Virus record (IMG/VR): IMGVR_UViG_3300048691_000182
Location: 32,280-96,279 of that record
Reading direction: 5' to 3' (one strand)
Length of the DNA stretch: 64,000 nt
Source: a virus
Part shown: positions 30,527-61,220 of the stretch, piece by piece
Numbering within the stretch: the first letter of the stretch is position 1
Layout of the letters: every line of letters begins with the position of its first letter
Translations under genes and position numbers: made by a program
The notes under the pieces: generated by a model
Database searches by the model: none
The model's input: only the letters and a program-made list of their open reading frames with translations
What the model was told of the DNA's origin: nothing

Positions 30527-32686
30527 TTAATATCTTTGTCTATAATTGCTGTAATTTTGAGTATTGTGTTTTGCTACTCTATTGGCTCTTTTAGACTCTC
30601 TAACATTATTAATAAGTTCATCAACAGAGAAGACTTCACCCTCTTCTAAAACAATAGACCTATTTAAAGATCTTAATTTTTGTTCTAGTTTAAGTATAAT
30701 AAAATCATCGTTTGTTTTACTTAGCTCTTCTTCAATAGCAACTATTTCTTGTCTGATATAATTTTGCTCCATTAGAAAATCATATTCAGCCTGGGTAGTT
30801 ACTTTATTCTTATTTGAAGCTGAGAATATTTTCTTACTGTCAATCCCATAAAAAGAAAGATTAGTAGCTTTAGTTAAGAACCAAAATATCAACAACCACG
30901 CAATTACCATATCGTCATGCATACCTTTTAAATGGTCCACACGATTATTAATAATTAACAAACTTGTTATCTGGTCTATGGTTGTCTTATCTCTAACTAA
31001 GTTTCCACCTTGTTTAGCGGCTAGTTGTAACGTAGTTGAATAAAGCTCACTTCGACTAGTTAGGCCTGAACCCGTAGTAATAAATCCAAATGTTTTCTTA
31101 TTAGTAGTGTAGACGTGCGAAGGTCTTCTCCCAAAAGGAATATTTAAATCTCTCCAGGTCTCTTTATCTTCATCACCTTTTTGAACAGCCATATTAAATA
31201 ATCTTTTAAATGGGTCAATACCTTTTGCAGGTAACATTAAAAGTAAATAATCAATAATAGCCACACCAGATGATTTTCTTTCAATAATAACAGTTAGATT
31301 GTCGTATTTAACAATCCAATCACAGATCCATTCAGCAAAAGTAATTAAATTAGTTTCATTGTAATTACCTGCACAGATAGTACCACCGTCGACAATATCT
31401 GCTAATAATAAAGATATATCATCACCACCAGAAGCATCGCTGGTATCCAGCGCCATTACAAAGTTACTAGATGACATTATTCTACCTAGTTCGTCTTGAT
31501 TCACATACCACTTTGTAATGTAGTTGTAGGGTGCGGCTATTTTGGTAGTAAAGTTTAAGTCTTGTGAATTTCTGATTCTAGTAAGTAGTTCAACAGACAA
31601 CGGAGACGATTGCGAACCAGAAGTCCAAACGTTAAAGAAGTCTCTGTCTGCATCCTCACCTTTTTGGATAGCATCTTCAATAGCGCGCTTTAACCACTCG
31701 TCGTCCTTACCTAGCTGAGTGTGGTTAAAAGTAGCATTGATGCGGAGCTTACCTGTTCTGGAGTTTAATTTAATTAATTTCTCCAACTCTTCTAAATTTT
31801 TAGCATCTAAAAAAGCCTCAGTCCATTCAGCAGCTTCTTGTAAGAGATCAAAAATATATCTACCGTCTTTATCGTCACGCTTACCAGCCGTAGTAGTAAT
31901 GATCGTACCGTGTGGTTCGTCATTTCTTCTGGCTTCGTCTCTTGCTGCCGTACCTGCTGCTAAAGCTGCTGGCATAGAGATAGCTATATTTGGTTGGAAA
32001 GGTGCTTCGTCAATATGGAATACAGGACTAGTTAAACCTCTCCCAACTTTTAAAGCATCTTTAGGCGATTTTTGAGGAACATGTGCGCGGTAATTATTAC
32101 CCATCGACTTAATACTAATTTCTTCTAAGTTATTAGTATCAGATTTAGATCTTTGTCTAAGGTAAGGAGGTAGCTCACTATCAATGTCTTTAATGCGTCT
32201 AATGTTGGTAGCACGTAGACCATCATCTTTAGTTAATAAGTTAATGTCTGTATTAGTACAGAGAATATTCATTAACAAAACCATTAATTCGTCCACAGAT
32301 AAAGATTTACCTGTTTGTCGAATCTGAATAAGAATAATGGTAATGTGATTAAAAAAACTCCAATATAAGCAAATATTACCTCTATTGGCCATTAGCATGC
32401 TAGACTGGGTGCCTGATGTAGCTGGGACTCTTGCCACTTCTCTAAAGAAGTACCATGGATTTAGTTTGCACTCTAAACCAATAGCCAGTTTCTGGTCTAA
32501 AGTTAAAAACTCAGAATGCGGATCTACTCCGTCTAATTCTTGGTTGTAAAGTGCAAGTAGGAAACAGTTGTTCTTAACACCCATTTCCTTGTATAAATTA
32601 GCTAGTTTTAAAAAGCTTTTATTACTTGTGTTATAGTGAATGGTGGCACCTGGCCACATTTTCCAATCTTCTTCAAATAGTATCAT
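30527..32686 (-). CDS. terL: Terminase large subunit (DNA-packaging motor)
   Basis: 719 residues. Walker A-like RQTGKS is at about 123-128, and Walker B PVFHIDE ends at about 227, followed by the coupling-type TTTAG segment near 245-250. The C-terminal half has ALDTSDASGGDD near 425-435, the first acidic patch of the RNase H-like nuclease. The protein pumps DNA into the prohead and cuts it. Size agrees with phiKZ-like terminases (gp25). An intron is not present. The exonuclease gene ends two bases before its start codon, so the two are coupled. Confidence 0.88.
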   Translation of the reverse strand: MILFEEDWKMWPGATIHYNTSNKSFLKLANLYKEMGVKNNCFLLALYNQELDGVDPHSEFLTLDQKLAIGLECKLNPWYFFREVARVPATSGTQSSMLMANRGNICLYWSFFNHITIILIQIRQTGKSLSVDELMVLLMNILCTNTDINLLTKDDGLRATNIRRIKDIDSELPPYLRQRSKSDTNNLEEISIKSMGNNYRAHVPQKSPKDALKVGRGLTSPVFHIDEAPFQPNIAISMPAALAAGTAARDEARRNDEPHGTIITTTAGKRDDKDGRYIFDLLQEAAEWTEAFLDAKNLEELEKLIKLNSRTGKLRINATFNHTQLGKDDEWLKRAIEDAIQKGEDADRDFFNVWTSGSQSSPLSVELLTRIRNSQDLNFTTKIAAPYNYITKWYVNQDELGRIMSSSNFVMALDTSDASGGDDISLLLADIVDGGTICAGNYNETNLITFAEWICDWIVKYDNLTVIIERKSSGVAIIDYLLLMLPAKGIDPFKRLFNMAVQKGDEDKETWRDLNIPFGRRPSHVYTTNKKTFGFITTGSGLTSRSELYSTTLQLAAKQGGNLVRDKTTIDQITSLLIINNRVDHLKGMHDDMVIAWLLIFWFLTKATNLSFYGIDSKKIFSASNKNKVTTQAEYDFLMEQNYIRQEIVAIEEELSKTNDDFIILKLEQKLRSLNRSIVLEEGEVFSVDELINNVRESKRANRVAKHNTQNYSNYRQRY

Positions 32687-46638: not shown

Positions 46639-48555
46639 ATGATTGAGTCGAAAGATTTTGCGAACACAGGCAACCAAACCGCTACTCAGGCCAACGTTGC
46701 TGAACAGCAACCAGTTAACTATGCACAGCAAAAGCCTGTTGCAGCAAATCCCCATGACGGTAAACTCAAGCCTTGGACTTTCCAAGACCGTAGTCCTTTT
46801 GGTTCGGCGCCAATTGCACGTGGCGTTGGTAGCGAGTACATTGTTAAGCTGGCAGGTATCCTGGGCGAGAAGTTCAAAGCAGCTCCAGCTACTTTCAAAT
46901 ACAATCTGATCAGCATTGATCGCTTGATTGATTCGCAGATTTGGTTCAGTGCTTTGGTGTTCTGCATGGCAGATGCTAAGAACGACAAAGCTGTTGCTTT
47001 TCACACACTGATTCTGGAAGCAACCAACATTGCTATTGCTCCTTTGACAAAGCCTTCAGGCATGCCAAATGAGAACATTCCAGTCGAAGTGTTTCGTCCT
47101 TCCAGCGATGCGTTTGACGCCGAACTGATGAAGTTGGTGAGCGCGCGTGTTCGTGATCAGTTCCCTGGTGCTAAACAGCTGTCTACTTTGGCCACTGTTG
47201 TTCCTCGTGATTTCAACATGGTTGATCAAAACCTGATCCATCAGTTGGCTGTTCAAATCTCTTTGGCCAATACCACTGAGCTGTCCATCAACGCCCCTGA
47301 TTTCACCGACATTAATCTGTCTAACATGGTTAATGACTCTCGCTTGACAGTTACCCCCACGTATACCAAGGGTGTAACGATTGATGCAGTTGATCACCCA
47401 ATCCGTTCCGATATCACGATTAACTTCAGTGCTAAAAAGAATGGCACTGGTAATGGTAACAACGAAACATCAGTCAACGTTGGCGACAACGTGGCGCAGA
47501 TTAGTCAACTGACTGGTTTCATCGATTTCATGTACTCCCCAGTACTGCCGCCTGACGTTACTAACTTTGGCGCCTACCAGCACCAACTGAAGCCTGGCGT
47601 TATCCCAACACAGACTTACGCGGCTCGTCTGGTTATTACCAACCTGGAAAACTACTTTGCAACAACTTTGCCCGGTAACCTGCTGTCGCTGACGACCGCG
47701 TTGGCAGCAAGTGAAAATGGTAACTGGATGCAAACGTTCTTGCCTAGTAACCGTTTGGTTGGTGGTAAGCCTTTCATGATGCATGATGTTGGTGGTTTGG
47801 GTATCGAAACCATCGGTAACGGTAAGCGTATTAATACCGATGGTGATGCCTTCCGTCCTGAGGACATGGGTAAGTTGATCGGTATGACTGTGCGTGAAGG
47901 TCTGACGCTGAGTCTGGATGTTCCTGATTGCGCGCCAAACACCTGGGGTTTGAAAGTATTCTCGGCAGCTGCTTCTGCACGTGAAGGTGAATTCACCCCA
48001 GCAATGGCAGCAATTTGCAATGCAGCAAACTACCTGACTAATGGTGCTTTCGATCGTAATTTCAACAAGAACTCACCAATGTTTGTTGATAAGGGTAACC
48101 GTGTGCATTTGGGTTACTACACCACCAAAGAAGGTGAGAAGCGTGACATCCGTGATTACGATTACTTGAGCGTAGCTAACATCACAGGCGAAGCTGATCC
48201 ACGCGACATCCGTCAGTGGTCGGATACGTTTGCACAAGTTAACCTACCTTTGGTTCCTCGTTTGGCTGCTCGTAAGCGCATCATCTCTAACCTGCAACCT
48301 AATGCAGTGTTCACTGGTTACGGCCACCGTGTTACGTTCAGTTCGCAGTTTATGACTGCTCTGGCCATCTCTTGCCGTGAAGCAGGTTTTGCACCAGTTC
48401 TGAGCACGCAATACGGTACTGCCGGTATGAACAACCAACGTGGCGTTAATAGCTTTGTTGGCGATGCCGCAATGGGTTCTAACAACGGTGTATTCCAATC
48501 TGCCAGCAATGGATGGAATGGTAGCAACACTTTCGGTTACGGTGGCCGTTGGTAA
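46639..48555 (+). CDS. chmA: Phage nuclear shell protein, chimallin (ChmA, phiKZ gp54-like)
   Basis: 638 residues, similar in size to known chimallins (about 600-630). Disordered Gln/Asn-rich N-terminus (1-40), large mixed alpha/beta body, and a Gly/Asn-rich C-terminal tail ending FGYGGRW, fitting the flexible tails that link chimallin tiles. The gene directly precedes the non-virion polymerase beta' N-terminal part, the same neighbour as phiKZ gp54-gp55. C/G-ending codons and its own promoter and terminator show very high expression. It would build the protein lattice around the replicating genome. The alternative, a capsid protein, fits the context less well. Confidence 0.8.
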   Translation: MIESKDFANTGNQTATQANVAEQQPVNYAQQKPVAANPHDGKLKPWTFQDRSPFGSAPIARGVGSEYIVKLAGILGEKFKAAPATFKYNLISIDRLIDSQIWFSALVFCMADAKNDKAVAFHTLILEATNIAIAPLTKPSGMPNENIPVEVFRPSSDAFDAELMKLVSARVRDQFPGAKQLSTLATVVPRDFNMVDQNLIHQLAVQISLANTTELSINAPDFTDINLSNMVNDSRLTVTPTYTKGVTIDAVDHPIRSDITINFSAKKNGTGNGNNETSVNVGDNVAQISQLTGFIDFMYSPVLPPDVTNFGAYQHQLKPGVIPTQTYAARLVITNLENYFATTLPGNLLSLTTALAASENGNWMQTFLPSNRLVGGKPFMMHDVGGLGIETIGNGKRINTDGDAFRPEDMGKLIGMTVREGLTLSLDVPDCAPNTWGLKVFSAAASAREGEFTPAMAAICNAANYLTNGAFDRNFNKNSPMFVDKGNRVHLGYYTTKEGEKRDIRDYDYLSVANITGEADPRDIRQWSDTFAQVNLPLVPRLAARKRIISNLQPNAVFTGYGHRVTFSSQFMTALAISCREAGFAPVLSTQYGTAGMNNQRGVNSFVGDAAMGSNNGVFQSASNGWNGSNTFGYGGRW

Positions 48556-48689: not shown

Positions 48690-50629
48690 ATGGCAATTAG
48701 TTTAGAGCTAGTAAATAACGATAAAGTTTTCTACGAGTTACCTAACCCACCTATTATTATCAATGATGTACTCAATACATCAGAAGAAGAAAGAGAAGCA
48801 TTACAAAAACTTATCTTTAGTAAGTACGGCTCAGAGCACCTAAGTAACTTGCCCTCGTGTGATTGTGATGAAGGTGTTGGTATTGTTGGTGAATTCAACA
48901 TCGGTGTCTATTGTCCTAATTGCAGAACCTGTGTCAAGCCACCCATTGACAAAGAAATCAATTCAATACTCTGGATGAGGTCGCCAATAGGGGTGCAGCG
49001 TCTTATTAATCCAATAGTCTGGACTATGATTAGTGAGCGTTTTACAATCTCTAAGTTTAATATCATTCAATGGTTATGCGATACTGGGTATTCAGTAGAT
49101 GCTAAAGTACCAAGTGAGATAGAACTCATCCAAGAAGCAGGCATAACAAGAGGTTACAATAATTTTGTAACTAACTTCGACGCTATTATGGGTTTTCTTT
49201 TTAGTATAAAGAAATTGTCTTTAAAAGTAAAAGGACCTATTGACCATCTTCAGGTATTACTAAAAACACATAGAGAATGTTTATTTAGTAAACATATTCC
49301 GCTACCCAATAAAGCTCTTCTAATTATTGAAGAGATTAATGTAGGTACATATGTAGACCCTGTTGTTCCAGTAGCTATCAATGCTATCCAGACAATTGCC
49401 AGTATTGATGCACCAGGTAATACTTTTAGCCTTCGTGTAAAAGAAAACAGGACTGTTAAATCATTAGCTACCTTGGCTGAGTTTAACGAAATGTATGCAC
49501 ATGTGGGTCTAGGTGGTAAACCAGGTATTCTTCGAAGAAACGTATTTGGTACTAGTAATAACTTTAGTTTCCGTACAGTTATTACTTCAATTACAGAACC
49601 CCATAAAGAAACAGATATACACATACCTTGGCCTGTAGCAATTACTGTATTTAATTACCACCTGATTAACCATTTAAAGAAAATGGGATTCACTCTAAAT
49701 GAATCTATTGGGTATTTGAATAAACATGCTTACAAATACGATCCTTTGATTGATAGTATTTTTGACAAGTTTTTGAATGCAGGTAAAGGTAATGGAATTC
49801 CTCTTACACTTGGTCGTAATCCAAGTCTAGGTAAGTCTAGTCTTCTTAGTGTATTTATTACTAAGATTATCAAAGACCCTAAAATAGTAGCTACTAAAAT
49901 TAGTATACTAATTACAGCCCATCTTAATGCTGATAGAAACTTAAGTAGTATTTAAGTATTAAGTATGTAAAATGAGGAGAAACATTTTATGTACAAAATT
50001 TAATAGAACATAAAACTAAAAAAAAAACGTTTTAGAGTTCGCTATTTAAGATAAGTCCTTTTATTTAGTAATAAATAAAAAGTATTCTTTTGAATTGCTG
50101 GAATAACTTGTTAGATCAGTAAACTACAATAATCCTGAAAAGAGATTATGAATGTTTAAAAATTACTGAGTAGAGTCAATCAGCAGCTAAGACCCTAAGC
50201 TCGTGAGAGTATGGGTAAAGTTCAACGACTATCCCGTAGCTGGGAGTAGGGGTTAGCAACTCCGAAGTGGAAGACTACCTAACTAGCAATAGAAGGTAGA
50301 AGATATAGTCTGTTCCTCACTGGAGACGTGAGGCGGGTGGAATACACCGGGTGTTTTTAAGAGTAGCCACTGGCGAGCGACTAACACTGGACAAAAAGTT
50401 TGACGGCGACGAATGCAACTTCTGTTTATTCTTGGACGAAGATCTTGCTAAAGAGTTTGAAAGTTTGAAACCACACAAAAGTGTTTTCAGTCTTAATTCT
50501 CCAAGACAGGTATCTGGAAATTTGTCCATGCCTAAGCCAGTGGTATCTAGTATTGCTGAGCTCATGAGCTCAAAAGAAATACCTGATCCTGCTAAGTTAG
50601 AGAAAATGAAGAGTTTGTATGTAGACTAA
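48690..50629 (+). CDS. Non-virion RNA polymerase beta' N-terminal part, interrupted by a group I intron
   Basis: Exons 48690-49934 and 50399-50629 join to 491 residues. C57, C59, C75 and C78 form a zinc-ribbon-like site (CDC...CPNC). Joining the exons restores NAD|FDGD (residues 413-419), the absolutely conserved magnesium-binding motif of beta', preceded by GRNPSLGKSS, equivalent to NRAPTLHR. The C-terminal beta' must lie elsewhere, as in phiKZ gp55/gp74. It is the transcription enzyme made after infection, used inside the phage nucleus. GAAAG ribosome site. Read without splicing, exon 1 meets a stop 21 bases into the intron. Confidence 0.88.
49935..50398 (+). ncRNA. Group I self-splicing intron without endonuclease gene (464 nt)
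   Basis: The 5' exon ends in T (49934) and the intron ends in G (50398), as group I introns require. The core has TTCAACGACTA with GACTA at 50227-50231 pairing to TAGTC at 50306-50310 inside AAGATATAGTC (P7), and an AATCAGCAGC element near 50169. About 230 bases of AT-rich sequence precede the core. No open frame of endonuclease size. Exact P1 pairing was not resolved. Confidence 0.85.
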
Positions 50630-55848: not shown

Positions 55849-56304
55849 ATGCCTCTTAAATTTGTAACGGGTAATCTATTTGAGTCTGACTGTGACGCTT
55901 TGGTCAATACTGTAAATACCGTCGGCGTAATGGGTGCTGGTATTGCATTACAGTTTAAAAACTTATTTCCTGAAAATTATATTCTTTATAAAAATGCTTG
56001 TAAAGATGGTATTGTGGTTACAGGAAAAATGTTTACAACTGTGGCAAACTTTAAAGGTAGGAAAATACTAATAGTTAATTTCCCCACTAAAGAACACTGG
56101 AGAAATCCTTCTAAATTAAACTATATTGAAGAGGGACTTATTAGTTTAGCTAATGGTTTAAGAATGAGTGGCATAAATTCAATCGCTATACCAGCTCTTG
56201 GTTGTAGTAACGGTGCCCTTAATTGGCTGAATGTCAAAGAGTTGATTGTAAGCCATTTGGGAACTATAGATAAAGAAATTTTAATATACGAACCACTACT
56301 GTAA
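55849..56304 (+). CDS. Macro-domain protein (ADP-ribosylglycohydrolase-like)
   Basis: 151 residues, a complete single macro domain. VTGNLFESDCDALVNTVNTVGVMGAGIALQFK (residues about 5-36) is the ADP-ribose loop of the DarG/TARG1-like group, and IAIPALGCSNGALNW is the second loop. Members remove ADP-ribose from nucleic acid or protein. In a phage this could undo ADP-ribosylation of phage DNA by DarT toxins, or degrade NAD-derived defence signals. Target not shown by sequence. Confidence 0.82.
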   Translation: MPLKFVTGNLFESDCDALVNTVNTVGVMGAGIALQFKNLFPENYILYKNACKDGIVVTGKMFTTVANFKGRKILIVNFPTKEHWRNPSKLNYIEEGLISLANGLRMSGINSIAIPALGCSNGALNWLNVKELIVSHLGTIDKEILIYEPLL

Positions 56305-57752: not shown

Positions 57753-57985
57753 CATTGTAAATAGGTGGTAGGCTTAGAAGCAGCCATCCAATAATGAGTA
57801 GGCACGTTACAACTATCCGTTAAAGGATTGTGAGCTGTTTCTTCTGTGCTGTGGACATAGGTGCCCGAGTTAACCCTGAGCTAAAGGGTAGGATGATTTA
57901 GGTTTTTAGTGGTGGACTGTAAACCCATATTTCAGGTACTTAGCATCTGATTTCTTTTAGCGTAATAGCACGCCTTTTTACAATG
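57753..57985 (+). ncRNA. RNA mimic of the 23S rRNA GTPase-associated centre with a ~160-nt insert
   Basis: GGCTTAGAAGCAGCCATC (57771-57788) is identical to helix 43 of bacterial 23S rRNA, and AGCGTAATAGC (57959-57969) is identical to helix 44, in the right order. These loops hold A1067 and A1095, the L11, EF-G and thiostrepton contact site. In rRNA they are separated by ~10 bases; here by about 170. Outer helices CATTGTAAA/TTTACAATG (57753-57761 with 57977-57985) and AGGTG/CGCCT close the RNA. The insert has stems at 57801-57805/57861-57865, 57873-57877/57885-57889 and 57901-57905/57921-57925. No protein gene covers it. Confidence 0.8.
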
Positions 57986-59544: not shown

Positions 59545-59848
59545 GGCCCTGTGATGGAATAGGTAGACATAAATTAGTTGTGTCCTATAGTAGAAATATT
59601 GTAGAAAAATGGTGTAAATTCAGGGAAAGCTTAACATGTAATGATGATGCCAATCCTGAGCGAAACTTTCGCAGTAATGTGAGATGACGTGCAGAGACTA
59701 TAATCACCTATCTTAACAAGTAAAGCTGAAGATAAAGGGATAGTCCACGTAACAACAGTAATAATACTGATAGTGAAAACTATAGTTATTTGAACAGACT
59801 TAAAATCTGTCGCCGAAAGGCATCCCGATTCGAGTTCGGGCAGGGCCA
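59545..59848 (+). tRNA. tRNA-Leu (TAA), interrupted by a group I intron
   Basis: Exons 59545-59570 and 59793-59848. Acceptor GGCCCTG/CAGGGCC, D-stem ATG/CAT, anticodon stem ACAGA/TCTGT with TAA at 59801-59803, class II variable arm, T-arm CCCGA/TCGGG. CCA is not encoded (CCT follows), unlike the other tRNAs. The intron falls between positions 25 and 26, at the end of the D-stem, not in the anticodon loop. Leader and trailer extend the acceptor to 18 perfect pairs (59534-59551 with 59841-59858). Confidence 0.88.
59571..59792 (+). ncRNA. Group I (IC3-like) intron in tRNA-Leu
   Basis: 222 nt. TCAGG (59620-59624) pairs with CCTGA within GCCAATCCTGAGC, and GCAGAGACTA (59691-59700) pairs through GACTA with TAGTC (59741-59745) in AAAGGGATAGTCC; these match cyanobacterial tRNA-Leu intron core words. 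P1: exon GACAT with intron GTGTC (59580-59584), giving the required U-G at the splice site. P10: exon AAC with GTT at 59577-59579. The intron ends in G (59792). No ORF. Confidence 0.88.
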
Positions 59849-60752: not shown

Positions 60753-61220
60753 ATGAAGAGTTTTACTGGTGCTATTTTCAAACCAATGCTAGAATGGTTT
60801 TATGAAAATGAATCTAAAGTATATGTGACGTTTGCTGTTTCTGATCCTGGTGTTGCGGCAAAACCATGGTTTCCTGAAAGAGCACTAGAAAAAATTGAAA
60901 TTGGTGATACTAATGGAAATAAACTGGGTCAAGTCCAGGTCATTACTATCAACCTTGGGCCGGATGCCGTTGATCAATTTAAATATTGGCCAGAAGGTTT
61001 TTCTGTTTTTGTAAGATTTAACGGTGAACCGTGTGATATTTATGTGCCATACAGTGCTGTAATTTCTTTACATAATCCTAACGGAAGGAAATGGTTTGCT
61101 GATTACGTTGCTGTTTCTTTAAGAACTACTGAGACTGAAGTTATAAAAACTCCTATCCAAACAACCAAACAAACTAAACCATCAAAAGTTAACTTTTTAA
61201 AACTAGTTTCAAAGGACTAA
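60753..61220 (+). CDS. Unknown protein
   Basis: 155 residues with an AAAGGAAA ribosome site; beta-rich, basic C-terminus. No motif recognised. Ends two bases before the next gene. Confidence 0.55.
   Translation: MKSFTGAIFKPMLEWFYENESKVYVTFAVSDPGVAAKPWFPERALEKIEIGDTNGNKLGQVQVITINLGPDAVDQFKYWPEGFSVFVRFNGEPCDIYVPYSAVISLHNPNGRKWFADYVAVSLRTTETEVIKTPIQTTKQTKPSKVNFLKLVSKD

Follow-up and report, generated by a model that had tools for sequence, protein, structure and literature searches.

Can a phage carry a piece of the ribosome as an RNA of its own? This question is raised by the window analysed here, a stretch of 64,000 nucleotides (positions 32,280 to 96,279) of the 96,279-nt virus record IMGVR_UViG_3300048691_000182. 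A sequence-only reading of this DNA had noticed two segments identical to helices 43 and 44 (H43 and H44) of 23S rRNA, placed in order in a non-coding stretch, separated by a folded insert of about 160 nt and closed by extra helices. Such an arrangement would be a copy of the GTPase-associated centre (GAC; H42–H44, residues 1051–1108 in Escherichia coli numbering). The comparative analysis described below makes it nearly certain that the locus encodes a phage RNA with the GAC fold, and a stand-alone, trans-acting role for this RNA is strongly supported.

A split copy of the GTPase-associated centre

The GAC copy occupies the non-coding stretch 57753–57985 on the + strand. Its first identical segment, GGCTTAGAAGCAGCCATC, was found at 57771–57788 and corresponds to E. 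coli 23S residues 1062–1079, and its second, AGCGTAATAGC, was found at 57959–57969 and corresponds to 1090–1100, which reproduces the order and coordinates first noticed. The wild-type E. coli sequence is legible around the A1067U primer in a published source (PMC5829649), and the 5' piece of the RNA family also matches Salmonella 23S records by blastn. Extended to the whole element, the numbering assigns 57766–57799 to 1057–1090 and 57960–57972 to 1091–1103. The copy is split within helix 44, between 1090 and 1091, by an arm of exactly 156 nt, and the gap between the two segments consists of this insert plus UUU. The parts were located as follows.

57753–57985, + strand: whole RNA element, GAC-fold platform plus insert arm (family row L001)
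57755–57765, + strand: 5' strand of closing helix P1, in place of H42 (1051–1056); P1 columns covary in the family
57766–57790, + strand: H43 equivalent (1057–1081), from family alignment and covariation
57766–57768/57788–57790, + strand: H43 outer stem
57771–57774/57782–57785, + strand: H43 inner stem
57775–57781, + strand: H43 loop, with A1067 at 57776 and C1072 at 57781
57791–57795, + strand: A-rich lone-pair triloop motif 1082–1086, with UA/CG/AU covariation in the family
57796–57799, + strand: H44 5' strand GAGU (1087–1090); A1088 at 57797, invariant together with U1060 at 57769
57800–57955, + strand: insert arm between 1090 and 1091, with base stem P4 at 57800–57802/57953–57955
57956–57959, + strand: UUUA linker; UUU[G/A] is a shared derived feature of the family
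57960–57972, + strand: H44 tip equivalent (1091–1103), GCGUAAUAGC hairpin, with A1095 at 57964 and the C1092-G1099 pair
57973–57983, + strand: 3' strand of P1
57983–58114, + strand: 43-aa ORF whose ATG overlaps the end of P1; no domain, no evident ribosome-binding site

The order is hence P1, H43, AUAAU, GAGU, the 156-nt insert, UUUA, GCGUAAUAGC, ACG and the second strand of P1, where A1101 and C1102 follow the H44 tip hairpin and the triloop motif AUAAU has an A-U closing pair at the place of U-A in 23S. The extra closing helix could be defined as the 11-position P1 (57755–57765/57973–57983) with a single U.U mismatch at 57762/57976. No ORF of at least 30 aa overlaps 57753–57982 in any frame, in keeping with a non-coding stretch. 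A contiguous GAC pattern gave no match within the window, as expected of a split copy, and no LSU match was found in the window that would place the element inside a complete LSU rRNA; the element has P1 as its own closing helix.

The contig encodes a nuclear shell protein (46639–48555) and RNA polymerase beta subunits of the phiKZ type, together with virion proteins that most closely resemble those of Burkholderia phage FLC9 and Xanthomonas phage LucasX. By these predicted genes it is assigned to a relative of the nucleus-forming (chimallivirus-type) jumbo phages. Several other features of the window were recorded. A macro-domain protein (55849–56304; PF01661, E 2e-15), approximately 1.5 kb upstream of the RNA, resembles DarG-type antitoxin macro domains and possibly counters DarT defence. 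Two group I introns lie at 50037–50333 and 59561–59771, the latter just after a tRNA-Ser gene in a tRNA array, where it may interrupt a further tRNA. An SspB-like protein at 60753–61220, slightly under the Pfam cutoff, is a possible phage ClpXP adaptor.

Distribution of the RNA family

The RNA family extends far beyond the window phage. In IMG/VR, scans with gapped patterns yielded hundreds of loci before filtering, and the same split architecture was retained at 293 loci, nearly all on phage contigs. These were reduced to 198 representatives less than 80% identical, and 119 insert types without mutual similarity were distinguished in the family. Distant blastn searches against phage records detected the two pieces, again split by a long insert, in gaps that otherwise bear no annotation, in pf16, UNO-G1W1, Astolliot, Milchi, XacN1, XbC2, GAP32, CBB, Serratia BF, many Erwinia phages, ME3, Aeromonas 4_4572 and Vibrio 2.275.O, to which XaC1 was added later. 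Hosts of the named carriers include Pseudomonas, Xanthomonas, Erwinia, Acinetobacter, Aeromonas and Vibrio, and a divergent form occurs in a Prevotella phage. At the sensitivity used, the RNA was absent from phiKZ, FLC9, LucasX, RaK2, 121Q and T4.

A scan of GTDB genomes gave ten matches, five of which are real cases, apparently on phage contigs or prophages; L229, L230, L232, L236 and L237 were rejected as true 23S misassemblies. Six IMG/VR matches (L013, L014, L016, L022, L023 and L026) resembled a phage protein-coding gene and were dropped by motif rules, and the match in Paenibacillus Pd_22F was discarded as true 23S. Some records labelled as phage do contain true bacterial 23S rRNA (Salmonella, Listeria, Staphylococcus and Paenibacillus Pd_22F) by contamination or misassembly.

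A covariance comparison with Rfam LSU models and a search of phage genomes had been proposed as checks; the latter recovered the family, whereas the former gave no match to the window element because the insert breaks the LSU models. When the window and 20 relatives (21 sequences) were scanned with Rfam 15, no family matched the element at its gathering score, and only tRNAs and group I introns were matched, all outside the element. The reading's remark that no such phage RNA had been described agrees with the open-licence PMC literature, which held no earlier description of a phage rRNA mimic; beyond that literature, one may exist that is very recent or still unpublished.

Origin of the copy

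Each half of the element predicts the other. When the 3' half alone (TTTGGCGTARNAGCACAC) was used against IMG/VR, an H43-like stem-loop lay upstream in nearly all of the matches listed with enough DNA, and these included compensatory H43 stems (GGAU..AUCC, UGCU..AGCA and GGGC..GCCC). When the 5' half alone was scanned, the 3' half followed downstream in 32 of 33 cases. The closing helix was located 72–315 nt downstream of the 5' search piece. Chance similarity, which had earlier been excluded from the length and order of the segments, is rejected because each half-search recovers the other half.

All members also share derived features absent from cellular 23S, namely the split at 1090/1091, UUU[G/A] before 1091, and A1101. 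That the element might prove a recent insertion of host rDNA had been raised at the outset, and true 23S contamination was indeed found in the phage record Paenibacillus Pd_22F. Recent capture is rejected, however, because members combine these non-23S features with covariation: the 119 insert lineages have UUUGG, A1101 and the same split site in common, and tertiary covariation runs across them. A chance likeness, or a recently captured host rDNA interrupted by an insertion, is accordingly left with almost no probability. Judged from the alignment, the family fits one ancient origin or strong shared constraint.

Covariation of the GAC helices and tertiary contacts

Covariation was evaluated on 172 gap-free cores, and a lineage test was performed with one sequence from each of the 119 lineages without insert similarity. 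Detection had rewarded the H43 pairs 1058-1080, 1059-1079 and 1062–1065/1073–1076, and had left unrewarded P1, 1057-1081, 1082-1086 and the identity of 1072, for which C and U scored equally. The H43 stem-loop and the H44 tip with canonical pairs were recovered over the 172 members and 119 lineages, and the top pairs in corrected mutual information were the expected GAC helices plus two tertiary features. The first of these is the pair 1082-1086, which is UA in 99, CG in 35 and AU in 22 of the 172 cores (MIp z 12.2) and is paired in 109 of 119 lineages against a shuffle maximum of 78; this motif has been described for 23S (PMC6689051). The second is the triple 1072.(1092-1099), occurring as C.CG (120 cores) or U.UA (51 cores) with one exception, and concordant in 118 of 119 lineages where shuffling reached 84 at most. 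This triple is reportedly known from the GAC structure work of Conn, Gutell and Draper in 1998. An out-of-sample scan for U1092/A1099, in which 1072 lay outside the search pattern, gave U1072 in 59 of 60 readable cases. Three insert lineages hold both triple states, so the switch happened repeatedly.

Other core nucleotides are nearly fixed. U1060 and A1088 occur in 172 of 172 cores, so that the nucleotides of this contact are present throughout and their invariance gives no covariation signal; A1085 and A1077 occur in 171 each and A1084 in 167. A1067, the loop nucleotide touched by factors, is less conserved than this L11-type core (A/G/U/C = 134/31/4/3; 78% A). The GAC helices and tertiary contacts are, by these comparisons, under selection. 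The sequence-only reading had considered that relatives might lack the two loops or vary in them without covariation; relatives at unrelated loci retain both loops, and the loops do covary, including the two GAC tertiary contacts.

A few members depart from this frame. In Prevotella phage Lak-A1 (L339, 895–1330), which belongs to type B and has a P1 of approximately 12 bp without mismatches, the frame is present and the H44 tip is replaced by CC-GAGAAAA-GG; this divergent H44 breaks the triple rule, and GAC loop docking may have been lost. Vibrio phage 2.275.O (L123) has the H44 tip GCUUAAUCGC with unusual loop letters and an otherwise intact frame. A minority of members (L020, L025, L029, L063, L072, L077, L086 and others) have an extra hairpin in the H43 3' strand, after GCAGCCA, with the junction intact.

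Closing helix, insert domains and folding energy

In the P1 columns 1048–1053 and 1106–1111, the sequence is free to vary and the pairing is retained; no fixed H42 (uL10-site) sequence was kept around the closing helix in the family. Ribosomal protein uL10 requires H42, and a P1 without fixed sequence implies that its site is not retained. The inserts, of 49–365 nt, are of unrelated types, mounted on an arm whose base stem shows abundant covariation, with pairing in 98, 98 and 91%. Type A inserts end in a small hairpin, CACC-CCR-GNRA/UAAC-YGG-UAAGG, with a covarying closing base pair. Type B inserts, found in GAP32, ME3, XacN1 and XaC1 and in divergent form in Lak, share the core CGUAUAA..UCAGGGGAAG...GACCCUUAGAG and a covarying GAAC/GUUC helix. 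In the window insert, the motif GGACUGUAAACCC is common to L154, with near variants in L111 and L074, and GGACUGUAAACC is common to L154 and L111, with a near variant in L074. Unrelated insert types on a conserved GAC point to a constant ribosomal platform that presents exchangeable domains.

Folding energy failed to prove the GAC fold for the window sequence alone. The unconstrained minimum-energy fold (−71 kcal/mol) pairs H43 otherwise than in the GAC, and the GAC fold with enforced pairs, calculated without tertiary energies, gave −52 kcal/mol. The alternative is driven by a 9-base run in the insert (57800–57860) that can pair with the loop and 3' strand of H43. Such self-antisense pairing as a general switch was rejected, since the family mean of 6.04 equals that in shuffles (6.06). 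Across the family, thermodynamic folding predicts the GAC helices in part (H43 69%, P1 73%, H44 tip 27%). As the best-energy fold of the window sequence is not the GAC, the proposed structure rests on comparative evidence rather than on folding energy.

Comparison with known RNAs

The phage RNA shares with the 23S GAC the H43 and H44 tip sequence, the three-way junction, the A-rich triloop with its 1082-1086 pair, U1060/A1088 and the triple 1072.(1092-1099). It differs in being free-standing, with 49–365 nt between 1090 and 1091, UUUGG before 1091, A1101 for U1101, a variable P1 for H42, and A1067 not fixed. GOLLD and ROOL are large structured phage non-coding RNAs with Rfam profiles that often lie near tRNA islands, and OLE RNA has been proposed to keep RpsU sequestered in a pocket like that of the ribosome (PMC12286853). 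The present family resembles GOLLD and ROOL as structured phage non-coding RNA near tRNA genes, but is smaller (about 120–440 nt), and no GOLLD or ROOL covariance-model match was obtained in the Rfam scans of the window and 20 relatives. With OLE, titration of a ribosomal protein by an RNA has been suggested before, though both the RNA and the protein are different. To our knowledge, GOLLD and ROOL do not contain a GAC, and OLE is not such a phage RNA. Ribosomal-protein operon leaders (uL1, uS8 and similar sites) likewise bind a ribosomal protein through rRNA mimicry (PMC10931766); they act in cis on ribosomal-protein genes, whereas the phage RNA has no conserved following gene and its copied domain is complete in tertiary detail.

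Genomic setting and proposed function

A tRNA gene lies within 200 nt in 41% of representatives, compared with 26% of random places in the same loci, and members with a tRNA within 500 nt are on its strand in 122 of 123 cases; in roughly half of the members no tRNA comes that close. A cis-acting leader, in which uL11 binding would control the next gene as in ribosomal-protein operons, might be suspected from the ATG at 57983 that overlaps P1 and from the established mimicry in such leaders (PMC10931766), and control of this small ORF had been suggested earlier. The first downstream feature, however, is an ORF or a tRNA depending on the locus, and there is no recurrent neighbour gene family, the largest occurring in 11 of 198 loci. 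In XacN1 a strong terminator-like hairpin directly follows P1, and six more loci show such a hairpin no further than 90 nt away. Astolliot (L006), L201 and L253 carry two copies with differing inserts. The copies are in tandem in Astolliot and L201, and those of L201 are one U.UA and one C.CG. Varied neighbours, terminator-like hairpins and double copies together are what an independent stable RNA would show, rather than a leader, and the leader reading is improbable. The 43-aa ORF, lacking a ribosome-binding site before its ATG and not conserved in the family, is probably not a regulated target.

As a whole, the data are best explained, with a chance slightly above even, by a trans-acting GAC-fold phage RNA that is made in infection and binds host uL11. 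The 5' and 3' ends would fold into a faithful three-dimensional copy of H43, H44 and the L11-binding junction, with a variable domain grafted into H44 and a phage-specific helix in place of H42. Such an RNA would be produced as a stable transcript during infection, and its conserved junction would bind uL11. Capture could lower the pool of free uL11 by titration, or it could hold uL11 or translation factors at the grafted domain; ribosome stalk function or uL11-dependent RelA signalling would thereby be tuned to the phage's advantage. We infer uL11 as the best candidate partner because the L11-type core hardly varies, A1067 does vary and no H42 sequence is fixed; GAC RNA, once folded, is known to bind L11 by itself (PMC8373061). 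Thiostrepton and the tRNA elbow both contact A1067 (PMC5829649), and the variability of position 1067 disfavours binding of thiostrepton-like ligands, an earlier suggestion.

Instead of acting mainly through uL11, the GAC copy could make direct contact with tRNA elbows, a translational GTPase or RelA; it might, for instance, chaperone phage tRNAs, serve as a scaffold that sorts them, or be a RelA sink. Ribosomal A1067 does stack on the A/R tRNA elbow (PMC5829649), and the RNAs often lie within tRNA arrays on the same strand. The incomplete conservation of A1067 and the many members remote from any tRNA make this unlikely, and we know of no strong tRNA or RelA binding by bare GAC RNA outside the ribosome. 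The RNA might also be bait, much as phage tRNAs counteract anticodon nucleases; its target would be a host toxin or defence able to recognise or modify the GAC, and the insert would add specificity or stability. Phage specificity, proximity to tRNA arrays and variable inserts on a constant platform would suit a bait, but no defence effector was found adjoining the RNA and none targeting the GAC is known to us, so this role is given a small chance. Taken further, the uL11-binding proposal would define an unrecognised class of trans-acting phage RNAs that capture the host's uL11, or factors that depend on it, RelA among them, by a complete tertiary GAC copy with exchangeable grafted RNA domains as effectors; this we hold tentatively, at somewhat under an even chance.

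Significance

Many unrelated large phages carry a stand-alone GAC-like RNA absent from the RNA family catalogue. In it, a whole ribosomal functional centre has been copied into a viral RNA and kept across phages of diverse hosts. The family offers a large natural library of extra-ribosomal GAC variants for work on RNA folding and L11 recognition, and possible tools acting on the GAC, an antibiotic target site. It makes phage control of uL11, the stalk base or RelA by RNA testable. Capture of uL11, if true, would be an RNA-level hijack of a translation stress-sensing site, and the GAC-like RNAs suggest that phages manipulate host translation or stress signalling by means of a copied piece of the ribosome.
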